Assembly (NCBI GenBank): GCA_018400955.1
Contig: JAGYLH010000001.1
Span: 62,001-126,000, forward strand
From: Bacteroidales bacterium
GTDB lineage: Bacteria; Bacteroidota; Bacteroidia; Bacteroidales; F082
Reading direction: 5' to 3'
DNA length: 64,000 nucleotides
Numbering within the stretch: position 1 is the first letter of the stretch; each line of letters begins with the position of its first letter. Position numbers and translations under genes: made by a program. Below, in pieces: positions 52,427-60,074 of the stretch. The notes under the pieces were generated by a model. That model was not told where the DNA came from. It made no database searches and was given only the letters and a program-made list of their open reading frames with translations.

Positions 52427-56028
<3,602 letters not shown>

Positions 56029-56348
56029 CTAAAGCCAATCAAGGGGCGTAGCCCTTACATCTCGGTAACAGCAAAGCCAAAATAGAGAACAAAGTGGCTT
56101 TAGCCCTGACATCTTTTTCTCAAAGGAAAAAAGTGGTTTTTATGGCAATAATTATAAATCTGCACTGGTCTGACAAATCATTCTCAAATGCATTTAGTGC
56201 GGATTGCAAATCCACATCATCGCAGTAAAGATGTCAGGGCTAAAGCCCCTTTGAACAGGATTGCAGCCAAATTGCTACCAAGATTGCAGGGCGCTGCCCC
56301 TGCATCACCAAAAAGTACGGCCCTACCACCTATAAAATTGTAAAATAG
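56029..56348. repeat. Intergenic region with scattered REP-like hairpin copies
   Basis: No gene. 56041-56073 is a copy of the array motif (AAGGGGCGTAGCCC, then CATCTCGGTA). 56095-56114 is a degenerate copy (GGCTTTAGCCCTGACATCT). 56228-56253 is an inverted copy (AAGATGTCAGGGCTAAAGCC). From 56203 to 56310 the sequence resembles 57660-57765, with shared words TTGCAAATCCACATC, AAGATGTCAGGGCT and CTACCAAGATT-CAGGGCGCT. Confidence 0.75.
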
Positions 56349-57010
56349 ATATAAAGGGGCGTAGCCCTGACATCTCGGTTGCAAAAAATAATCATGCACG
56401 ATCAAAGGGGCGTAGCCCTGACATCTCGGTAGCAAAGAAAGATCATGCACGATCAAAGGGGCGTAGCCCTGACATCTCGGTAGCAAAGAAGGATCATGCA
56501 CGATCAAAGGGGCGTAGCCCTGACATCTCGGTAGCAAAGAAAGATCATGCACGATCAAAGGGGCGTAGCCCTGACATCTCGGTAGCAAAGAAAGATCATG
56601 CACGATCAAAGGGGCGTAGCCCTGACATCTCGGTAGCAAAGAAGGATCATGCACGATCAAAGGGGCGTAGCCCTGACATCTCGGTAGCAAAGAAAGATCA
56701 TGCACGATCAAAGGGGCGTAGCCCTGACATCTCGGTAGCAAAGAAAGATCATGCACGATCAAAGGGCGTAGCCCTGACATCTCGGTAGCAAAAAATAATC
56801 ATGCACGATCAAAGGGGCGTAGCCCTGACATCTCGGTAGCAAAAAATAATCATGCACGATCAAAGGGGCATAGCCCTGATATCTCGGTAGCAAAGAAAGA
56901 TCATGCACGATCAAAGGGGCGTAGCCCTGACATCTCGGTAAAGGGGCGCAAAAGAATCTCGGTTGCAAAGAAAGATCATGCACGATCAAAGGGGCGTAGC
57001 CCTGACATCT
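56349..57010 (+). repeat. 51-bp tandem array with REP-like hairpin in each unit
   Basis: Twelve full units and a partial one start at 56349, 56400, 56451, 56502, 56553, 56604, 56655, 56706, 56757 (one base short), 56807, 56858, 56909 (irregular, 75 bp) and 56984. Each unit holds AAAGGGGCGTAGCCCTGACA, where GGGC and GCCC can pair around GTA, then CATCTCGGTAGCAAA, a short variable part and the near-palindrome GATCATGCACGATC. Units differ mainly in the variable part. There are no unique spacers, so it is not CRISPR. The array ends 6 bp from the stop of the Y1 transposase gene. Confidence 0.93.
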
Positions 57011-57016
57011 ATAGAA

Positions 57017-57478
57017 TTATTCTATCCAATCAAACAAATATTTAAGCTCATAATCAATCTCAAATTTTTTTAAAAAGCCCAGGTATTCCTCTCTAAAGGA
57101 ATGTTTCTTATGATGCAAAGGTTGGTCTAGAATATATTGAACAACCCTTTCTGTTTGTGATTTAGAATAAGAAAAAGCACCATAACCTCCCTGCCAATGG
57201 AATTTTTGCGGAAGGAATTTCTTTTCGTTCATCCATTTTGAAGAACCGGATTTTATTTGTTCAATTAGTTTTGAAACAGATATTGCAGGGTTTAAACCAA
57301 CCAAAACATGCGTATGATCAGGATTACAATAAATAGCATAGGTTTTCGATTGATGATTTGTGACAATACCACAAATAACCTTTTCCAATTCATCTCTGAA
57401 TATTTCTTTAATAAGGTTTTCTCTGCCTTTAACTGTAAATACATATTGAATGTAAATCTGAGTGTAAGAATTTGCCAT
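57017..57478 (-). CDS. Y1 (HUH-type) transposase, IS200/REP-associated kind
   Basis: Single-strand DNA transposase-like protein of 153 residues. MANSYTQIYIQYVFTVKGRENLI is the first beta strand. The metal-binding pair is in YCNPDHTHVLVGLNPAISV (His-Thr-His in place of HUH). SVSKLIEQIKSGSSKWMNE and FHWQGGYGAFSYSKSQ follow, and the likely nucleophile is the Tyr of VVQYILDQPLHHKK. Relatives excise, copy or process DNA at small hairpins. The gene is intact while the nearby IS66 transposase is not, and REP-like hairpins lie on both sides. This resembles REP-associated tyrosine transposases, but the assignment to RAYT rather than IS200 is inference. Confidence 0.85.
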   Translation of the reverse strand: MANSYTQIYIQYVFTVKGRENLIKEIFRDELEKVICGIVTNHQSKTYAIYCNPDHTHVLVGLNPAISVSKLIEQIKSGSSKWMNEKKFLPQKFHWQGGYGAFSYSKSQTERVVQYILDQPLHHKKHSFREEYLGFLKKFEIDYELKYLFDWIE

Positions 57479-58081
57479 TTCTTTTATTTTTAGTTAGTAA
57501 CGAATTGGTTTCACAGCAAAGATAGTTGATGTTTTACAACTGCAATTTGCATTTACCTTCAAATGATGATGTTACAAAAGAATGAGAAAATTATTATTTT
57601 GGCAAGAATTTTATTCCAAACAAGCTTTAGGAATTTATTATCGAATGCAATTATTACAGTTTGCAAATCCACATCTTCCTGACAGAAAAGATGTCAGGGC
57701 TGCGCCCCTTAGATATACCGACCACATCACTTTCTACCAAGATTACAGGGCGCTACCTTCATGCATTGGCTGCAATCCAATCCTTGAATTTATTTAAAAC
57801 CTACATAGCTAAAAAATGCTAAATCTTTTTCTTGTTTTACTTAAAAGCTTTAACTTAGTGCTGGCAAAACCATCATCCATGAAGGCACAGTGCAGCAGCA
57901 AGGTGTATATGACCTTGAATATCATTAGTATGATTCGATCCGATCAAGTCCTGTTCGCGAAAAAAGCAAGACAACAAGCACTAAAATCACTGAACCTTTA
58001 CGTGGCAACAGCCGTTCGCACGGAAGCGGTGAGTTTATCCCCTGATTTGCATTTGCATACATTTTAATATTTTATTTTGAT
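57479..58081. repeat. Intergenic region with inverted REP-like copy
   Basis: No credible gene in about 600 bp. 57686-57710 is AAAAGATGTCAGGGCTGCGC followed by CCCTT, the REP-like hairpin in the orientation opposite to the array, placed upstream of the transposase gene. It lies in a segment (57660-57765) similar to 56203-56310. The rest is unremarkable; an 83-codon open frame at 57816 has no recognisable content. Confidence 0.7.
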
Positions 58082-58386: not shown

Positions 58387-60074
58387 GTAATTATTTAGCT
58401 GCTCCCATGCAAAACTATGCCCTTGTCAACAATTTTTCGTGATGCTTGTTGATAACTCTTTGTTTTTAAAGATTCTAAGCCTCCTGAGATTTTGCTATTT
58501 GCTGCTGTAAATTTTTATTCGTCAAATATGCTATTCTCGGGAAGGTTGTTTTGTAAAATCAGTGGATATCAACATTTTTGGTGTTGTGGTGTTGGTAACA
58601 ATATGGGTAAATATTTGACATTCAAGATGTGGTCAACATACCTTTGCCAAAAACTATAGATTTGTACGAAGACCGCCTCATATCGGCATTACTAAAACGC
58701 ATTGATGAGCTCATTGCGCCTCGATCAGGCGGAAAAACGGGTGTGGCCCTCAAGGCTGGCGATGAACTCAAAGCCAGGCTGTCGAGCAATAGCAAAAACG
58801 GCAACAAACCGCCCTTCGAGTGATGGCTATACCAAGAAACCGGCGTTTCCCAAGCAGGCCAAGGAAAGCATGGCGGACAAATTGGCCATAGTGGCAATAC
58901 GTTGCGCCAATCACAAAAACCAAGATCAAATAGTTAAGTTGCAAGCCTGCCAATTGTACATGCGGGCATTCCTTTAGTGAGCAGGAAATGGAGTTGTCAG
59001 AAAAGCGGCAGTTATTCGAATTGCCACAACCCAAACTAGAAGTCACCGGAGTACCAGATATGCAAAGGCACCTGTCCCGGCTGCGGATTGTCCATAAAGG
59101 CTTGGCCCCTGTGATCGTAGTAAGTTCCCCTGTTCAATACGGCGGCAATAATGTAAAAGGCGCTGGCTGTGTTGAACGTACAATACAAACTGCCTTTCAG
59201 AAAGTACAACAATTGTTTGGCAGTTGTTCTTGCCCCATAAAACGAGTCATCAGTTTATTCAACATCCTTGCGATTAACTATAAGGACCTTGATGAAAGTG
59301 AACAAATAATCAAATCAAAAGTGGCCCAAAACAATGTTGTACATGTTGATGAAACAGGCTTGCGGGTTGAAGGCCTTTTGCGGTAGCTCCATACTGCTTC
59401 CACAAACCTATACACCTATCTTTTTGTGCATGACAAAAGAGGAGGGCAAGCACTACAAAGCGACAAATCAATCATAAACAACTTCACAGGATGGCTTGTC
59501 CATGATTGCTGGGGCAGTTATTTCAAATTTACCGGCACCAAACATGCCCTTTGTGGTGCCCATATACTCAGGGAACTGCAAGCCGAAATAGAAACAGGCC
59601 AAAGCAAATGGGCCAAAACGCTTAAAACGTTTTTAATGCATGTGTATGAAATGCCCTTTCAGCAAAGGGCAGTGCAACGGCAAAAAATAATATCAAGGTA
59701 CAAGCGTATATGCCAATTCGGTCTAAAGGCTGAACCCCCGCCCATAAAAACCCCCGGAAAACGGGGGCGGATGAAAAGGACAAAAGCCAGAAACCTGGTC
59801 GAGCGCCTGATCAGAGAACAAGATGCAGTGCTTGCCTTTGCTTTTAACGAAGAAGTCCCATTCACAAACAACCTTGCAGAAAGGGATATCAGGCCTGTAA
59901 AAGTCAAACAGAAAATCTCAAACTGCTTCCGGTCATTCAAAGGGGCTCAAATCTATGCCAGGATAGAGGGATTTGTTTCAACTGCCAGAAAACAGAAACG
60001 AAACGTGTTCTCAGAATTATGTCATACTTTTGATGGTTACAATTTCGTGACGGAAGGGGTAGCTAAATAATTAC
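58387..60074 (+). mobile_element. IS66-type insertion sequence, single-transposase form
   Basis: Left end GTAATTATTTAGCTGCTCC (58387-58405) and right end (60074-60056, reverse complement) GTAATTATTTAGCTACCCC match at 17 of 19 positions and begin GTAA as in IS66. Length is 1688 bp with only one transposase gene, as in the ISBst12-type subgroup lacking tnpA/tnpB. Flanks are TTTTGTTT on the left and CTTGTTTT on the right, an imperfect version of the expected 8-bp duplication. The transposase stop codon lies inside the right repeat. The transposase is broken, so the copy is probably immobile. Confidence 0.9.
58629..60070 (+). pseudogene. IS66 transposase, disrupted
   Basis: All parts of an IS66 transposase are present in order but not in one frame. 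The N-terminal part (KARLSSNSKNGNKPPF, then NKPPSSDGYTKKPAFPKQ in another frame) needs two or more shifts, and the zinc-finger-like CKGTCPGCG at 59060 is out of frame with its neighbours. 58988-59386 gives VVHVDETGLRVEGLLR (catalytic Asp). TAG at 59384-59386 replaces the Trp expected in LLRWLHTAS, an in-frame nonsense change. 59426-60070 completes it with HDCWGSYF, CGAHILREL and NNLAERDIRPVKVKQKI. Confidence 0.88.

Follow-up and report, generated by a model that had tools for sequence, protein, structure and literature searches.

A transposase gene that ends beside a regular tandem array of small hairpins raises the question of whether the hairpins belong to the enzyme and, if they do, whether the enzyme built the array. 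We addressed this question in a 64,000-nt stretch of DNA (the window) from a draft Bacteroidota genome of 3.65 Mb in 235 contigs (83% complete), whose family has genomes deposited as Bacteroidales among its members, and in relatives of the gene. Judged by sequence comparison, the locus is probably a REPtron-like cassette in which hairpins accompany a subclass 1.2 transposase and, at this site, one flank has expanded in tandem; the same reading makes the cassette family low-copy and widespread in Bacteroidota.

The transposase gene and its class

The gene tnpA (57017–57478, minus strand, stop codon at 57017–57019) is intact and encodes a Y1 (HUH) transposase of 153 aa, with a Pfam Y1_Tnp score of 84 bits and the motifs DHTH, HWQ, and YILDQPLHH. 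The neighbors of the locus are ligA (53983–56028) on one side and, on the other, an IS66-type transposase (58988–60070). The latter is probably a broken copy and lies in two ORFs (58988–59386 and 59426–60070), of which only the second matches DDE_Tnp_IS66.

Several lines of evidence bear on the class of the enzyme. The window protein passes the NCBIfam IS200 model (65 bits, cut-off 55), and the best structural matches of its AlphaFold model (pLDDT 88.8) are the TnpA proteins of ISDra2 and IS608, followed by the REP transposase 4er8. The subclass 1.2 motifs Y---Q--HH (here YILDQPLHH), PDHTH, and HWQ are present, in a protein of 153 aa compared with a length criterion of ~148 aa, and the Y motif was found in 102 of 108 relatives. 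The window's own genome contains one Y1 gene, and paralogues in other genomes are divergent, in agreement with the low copy number of subclass 1.2. No tnpB adjoins the window tnpA. By its sequence, TnpA is a class 1 (IS200-like) enzyme with the signature of subclass 1.2, as assigned by the published motifs rather than by the profile of Quentin et al.

An earlier note on this DNA had described the transposase as of the IS200/REP-associated type, and the REP-associated part of that label is not supported. Class 2 RAYT identity was rejected because the Y---NP signature is absent (Y---Q--HH stands in its place), the score for REP_Tyr_transpos is 39 bits against a cut-off of 80, and the hairpins have no GT[AG]G foot. 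Their conserved foot or tail is TGACATC, and GTAG appears as loop context, C-GTA-G, and at a greater distance in TCTTNGTAG.

Hairpins in the window and in its genome

The tandem array (56353–57010, plus strand) lies on the 3' side of tnpA and contains 13 hairpins of the form GGGC-GTA-GCCC-TGACATCT with a period of 51 bp, as delimited by Tandem Repeats Finder and a pattern count. Tandem Repeats Finder by itself reported 56353–56940 (period 51, 11.5 copies, 96% match) and no second tandem array in the whole window. Read out from the sequence, the hairpins (GGGC[G/A]TAGCCC, at 56357 through 56992) follow one another in steps of 51 bp ten times, 50 bp once, and 75 bp once; the longest step is unit 12, which has a 24-bp internal insertion. 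We note that this count may differ from the true number of units, because the array comes from a draft MAG assembly. The pattern GGGGCGTAGCCCTGACATCT, with up to three mismatches, had 16 matches in the window compared with 0.01 expected in shuffles. The order of variants along the array is block-like, with A, G, A appearing in units 2–4 and again in units 5–7.

Six bases (57011–57016) lie between the last unit and the tnpA stop codon. The inner hairpin next to the gene, HP2 (56991–57010, plus strand), has its tail toward the stop codon and is the counterpart of the conserved downstream hairpin of relatives. An intact Y1 gene six bases from a regular 51-bp hairpin array, as first described, is therefore confirmed by Pfam, the ORF, and Tandem Repeats Finder, but the count of 12 units is replaced by 13 hairpins. 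The near-palindrome GATCATGCACGATC, originally considered a key feature of the unit, proved to be a linker feature that was not found in the relatives examined and is disrupted in this genome's other array (contig C165). The folding energy of one unit is weak (z of −0.7 and −1.2 for the two strands). The single hairpin is short and not significantly stable alone, and the case for its reality thus rests on covariation in relatives. A search of Rfam returned no family at its gathering score for the hairpins.

On its 5' side, the window tnpA has no hairpin near the ATG. An inverted inner hairpin, HP2' (GGGGCGCAGCCCTGACATCT, 57689–57708, minus strand), was located by pattern match unusually far (~210 bp) from the ATG, and a degenerate outer hairpin, HP1' (57735–57759, minus strand), lies ~53 bp outside HP2' and has a conserved AATCTTGGTAG tail similar to one in relatives. 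A further group of hairpins at 56043–56305, with plus hairpins at 56044 and 56095 and minus hairpins at 56237 and 56289 (spacings of ~51 and 52 bp), is probably a gene-less hairpin cassette, by comparison with the gene-less cassettes of relatives.

A pattern search of the window's own genome found the hairpin motif in two places only, around tnpA and on C165, where three further tandem units of the window type occur with the gene absent. This stand-alone array lies inside a long imperfect direct duplication (L018, G000:C165:21500-24000, ~900–2050). The second copy resembles the first with many small deletions, which may reflect either a misassembly or the decay of a true duplication.

Mirrored hairpins flank the gene in most relatives

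We gathered 127 relatives across Bacteroidota, with the flanks playing no part in their choice. A scan of GTDB genomes provided 80 loci (53%–76% identity), and a search of 149 family genomes gave matches in 109, from which 50 loci were read; ~25 loci belong to Chryseobacterium or near relatives and are not independent. Repeated 13-mers (three or more copies) were present in the 600-bp flanks of 28 out of 54 loci compared with one out of 54 at 2.2–2.8 kb, and inspection traced them to short hairpins with the loop GTA or similar, in mirrored order. Among 124 usable loci, a GC-rich hairpin was found no more than 70 bp upstream of the gene at 89 loci and no more than 70 bp downstream at 100, compared with 12% and 21% of 147 control genes from the same loci, under a stem filter that misses AT-rich stems. 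Matching stems on both sides were found at 56 of the 124 loci (45%) and in 0.7% of control genes, and 1000 permutations of the pairs gave a mean of 11.5 and a maximum of 21.

The arrangement of these hairpins follows a strict pattern. The nearest upstream hairpin was in plus orientation in 74 out of 74 cases and the nearest downstream hairpin in minus orientation in 73 out of 75, such that 147 out of 149 kept the rule. The median distance was 24 bp to the ATG for the upstream hairpin and 14 bp from the stop codon for the downstream one, and a second hairpin frequently lay ~50 bp beyond the first. Neighbors in the same orientation were 46–57 bp apart in 155 out of 230 cases (67%), and the 51-bp period seen in the window is thus the usual hairpin distance of this family. 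Twenty of the 127 relatives had no hairpins detectable by a loop-anchored test. Most relatives lie between mirrored hairpins, and the transposase does not regularly occur with unrelated ends.

Further features were noted at single loci. At L044 (G007:C11), a GCCTC-GTA-GAGGC hairpin recurs with a 25-bp period, half the usual spacing, on both sides of the gene. At L023 (G017:C42:17456-20911), several different small hairpins lie upstream of a subclass 1.2 gene that stands amid genes which, by eye, resemble type I CRISPR cas7 and cas5/cas3. No relative was found in phages, and four plasmids carry distant to moderate relatives. The copy on a Bernardetia plasmid (61%) has another stem, GTTGC-TCT-GCAAC, which was missed by the GC filter and spotted only by eye.

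Stem variation follows the protein

When the loop C[G/A]TAG alone was used as an anchor, the four outward pairs were all complementary in 40% of 709 flanking anchors, compared with 3% of anchors far away and 0 out of 81 inside genes. The paired flanking anchors fell into 28 stem types. We interpret this pattern as compensatory variation, and it is the main evidence that the hairpins matter. Stem type required 31 changes on the protein tree, compared with a mean of 69 and a minimum of 62 after shuffling, on a tree that was quickly made and has many weakly supported forks. The GGGC stem belongs to one clade with members in Bacteroidales, Marinilabiliales, Cytophagales, Flavobacteriales, Chitinophagales, and Saprospirales, and its presence across several orders suggests that gene and hairpins spread horizontally as one. 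Paralogues within a single genome (seen in G024 and in G031) have different stems, each matched on its two sides.

The window motif was present in seven of the 149 family genomes. In at least four of the seven, it flanks a closely related transposase gene, which is intact in G000, G055, and G031, a pseudogene in G069, and cut by an assembly gap in G034; the remaining two, G007 and G064, are congeneric with G055, G034, and G069. The 51-bp motif is thus not found mainly in genomes without a related transposase. Across 13 named genomes, the motif was clustered at the transposase locus, with a few pairs elsewhere. The link between hairpins and transposase, initially proposed from their positions in the window, is supported by the enrichment and mirrored sequence of the hairpins, by their compensatory variation and clade-specific stems, and by their occurrence together with the gene in different genomes.

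Gene-less cassettes and unit number

Two Cognataquiflexum species share a block around the gene that extends from outer hairpin to outer hairpin, beyond which the flanks are unrelated. We rejected this pair as two insertions of one element, as comparison of the flanks shows a more complex history with neighboring cassettes at shared sites; no clean empty site was found in that comparison. Two gene-less copies 208 kb apart in one genome have homology that stops at the outer hairpins. Gene-less cassettes retain a few bases of each gene end and so look like internal-deletion derivatives, and some of the gene-less copies could be what deletion left behind at old sites and not mobilized copies. The gene-less copies of G151 are not used as proof of mobility because a larger element, which has inverted repeats of its own, contains most of them.

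Variation in unit number, which had been suggested for study between strains, was observed between related species at orthologous sites. One such site in Labilibaculum and a relative has two, three, and four upstream 102-bp (double) units, and unit number also differs among three species of one genus. The Labilibaculum repeat unit runs from the first bases of tnpA through both hairpins, which shows that the flank was duplicated and not a free hairpin.

Other repeat arrangements were also observed. A stand-alone array of 8–9 hairpins ~54 bp apart (L183, G034:C50:38800-42400, 1341–1860) had no transposase gene in the surrounding 3.6 kb. At L142 (G156:C12:119000-121300), several 225-bp tandem units, with one GGGCGTAGCCCTGAAATC hairpin each, lie beside a gene-less cassette. 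In two Marinifilum species (L061 and L067), one 1.2-kb neighboring segment lies to one side of the transposase gene in the first and to the other side in the second, a local rearrangement with its limits near the inner hairpins.

Origin of the cassette and of the array

By comparison among relatives, we consider the following to be established: the architecture, the matched and covarying stems, the association with the gene, separate gene-less copies bounded by outer hairpins, and unit number that varies between related species. The cassette has the order HP1, ~50 bp, HP2, tnpA, inverted HP2', ~50 bp, inverted HP1'. TnpA, as a predicted single-strand HUH/Y1 nuclease-ligase, would recognize its own hairpin pair on an exposed strand, with both binding and cutting putative. 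By cutting and rejoining at the hairpins, it may move the whole cassette or gene-less versions of it, in the way proposed for REPtrons and their REPINs. On the 3' side of the window gene, tandem copying would have raised the hairpin unit to ~12 units. Two similar hairpins normally lie ~50 bp apart, so that one step of slippage, unequal recombination, or transposase rejoining could produce a repeat of this period, here 51 bp.

The driver of this amplification is a separate matter from the cassette itself. We give an even chance to a neutral tandem repeat that grew by replication slippage or unequal crossing-over, with the transposase irrelevant to array growth and the hairpins still its ends; this explanation concerns array growth only and is compatible with the cassette reading. 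Slippage or recombination between hairpins 51 bp apart would be enough, and the repeated variant block of the window leans that way. Together with the Labilibaculum units that include the gene start, it makes ordinary recombination or slippage fit as well as transposase action, and the differences in unit number between species also agree with it. On the other hand, the hairpin type occurs only in genomes with a matching transposase or of such a genus, and the period equals the usual hairpin spacing of unamplified relatives, although neither observation excludes slippage. Array growth driven by the enzyme is possible. A stronger proposal, that subclass 1.2 is a distinct phylum-wide hairpin-cassette system whose enzyme cuts and rejoins hairpins ~50 nt apart and builds arrays beside its own gene unit by unit, seems to us unlikely.

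Two further explanations address the hairpins themselves. The locus could be an ordinary IS200-type insertion sequence, with the hairpins as terminal recognition structures and the array as a damaged end, which we regard as rather unlikely. The class 1 assignment by NCBIfam, the Y---Q motif, the IS608 and ISDra2 structural matches, and homology blocks that stop at hairpins all agree with it. However, guides in IS200/IS605 elements lie 5' of each palindrome on one strand, that is, in direct orientation (PMC8266576), whereas the ends here are inverted in 147 out of 149 cases. Likewise, members of subclass 1.1 occur in multiple copies that are 99% identical within a genome (PMC6006769), whereas the gene here is single and its paralogues elsewhere are divergent. 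We note that the difference between an IS200-type element and a REPtron is one of degree. A role of the hairpins in RNA-level or transcriptional control of tnpA, as a 5' leader and a 3' terminator rather than as DNA substrates, is in our view very improbable. Their closeness to the start and stop codons would suit such a role, but leaders and terminators would not be expected to show mirrored orientation with matched sequence on both sides, or outer second hairpins, gene-less cassettes, and gene-free arrays, and the empty Rfam result also speaks against it.

Comparison with known systems and significance

The REPtron-like cassette remains our preferred reading, and it shares several features with class 2 TnpA-REP/RAYT systems of E. 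coli, Stenotrophomonas, and Marinomonas (PMC6006769, PMC8266576, PMC3116915). These include a low-copy Y1 gene between inverted hairpins, a separate hairpin family for each gene, and small gene-less elements of paired hairpins; REPs of Marinomonas are also concentrated near their gene. In contrast to REPtrons, the transposase here is class 1 (Y---Q--HH, not Y---NP), no GT[AG]G foot immediately precedes the stem on its 5' side (the tail reads TGACATC, and outer units contain TCTTNGTAG), the two-hairpin ends are ~50 bp apart, and copies are few and mostly at the gene locus rather than many and dispersed. IS200/IS605 elements (subclass 1.1, including IS608 and ISDra2) have the same fold, catalytic motifs (HUH Y1, Y---Q), and hairpin ends, but differ from these cassettes, which have inverted ends with two hairpins per end in many loci, one gene copy in the window's own genome, and no tnpB beside the window gene.

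A third published system is subclass 1.2 (PMC6006769), with which the family agrees in length, HUH, WQ, and Y---Q--HH motifs, low copy number, and occurrence in Bacteroidetes. Quentin et al. (2018, PMC6006769) list this subclass in a table with no REP and an unknown role, and describe it in the text as generally without typical terminal IS200 structures, whereas most members here have mirrored, covarying hairpins. The absence of REPs is a description and not a defining feature, and so the flanking hairpins revise the account of subclass 1.2 and do not exclude membership. We found no earlier report of hairpins for subclass 1.2 in the open-access literature, a scope that leaves out subscription papers and ISfinder. 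The array was at first thought an unusual form, but tandem REPIN clusters adjoin the three RAYT genes of P. fluorescens SBW25 (PMC3116915), and the novelty therefore lies in the class of the enzyme and in the conserved cassette, whereas the array itself has precedent.

These results suggest that a transposase group listed without cognate DNA sites has candidate ones, under a simple rule of mirrored C-GTA-G hairpins with an outer partner 50 bp away and a stem matched to the protein clade. They offer concrete candidate substrates for a first assay of subclass 1.2 enzymes, and the naturally occurring protein and stem variants form a series in which to study hairpin reading by Y1 enzymes. The family may represent an intermediate between mobile IS200 elements and domesticated REP transposases, and cassette hairpins would account for part of the short intergenic repeats in Bacteroidota genomes.
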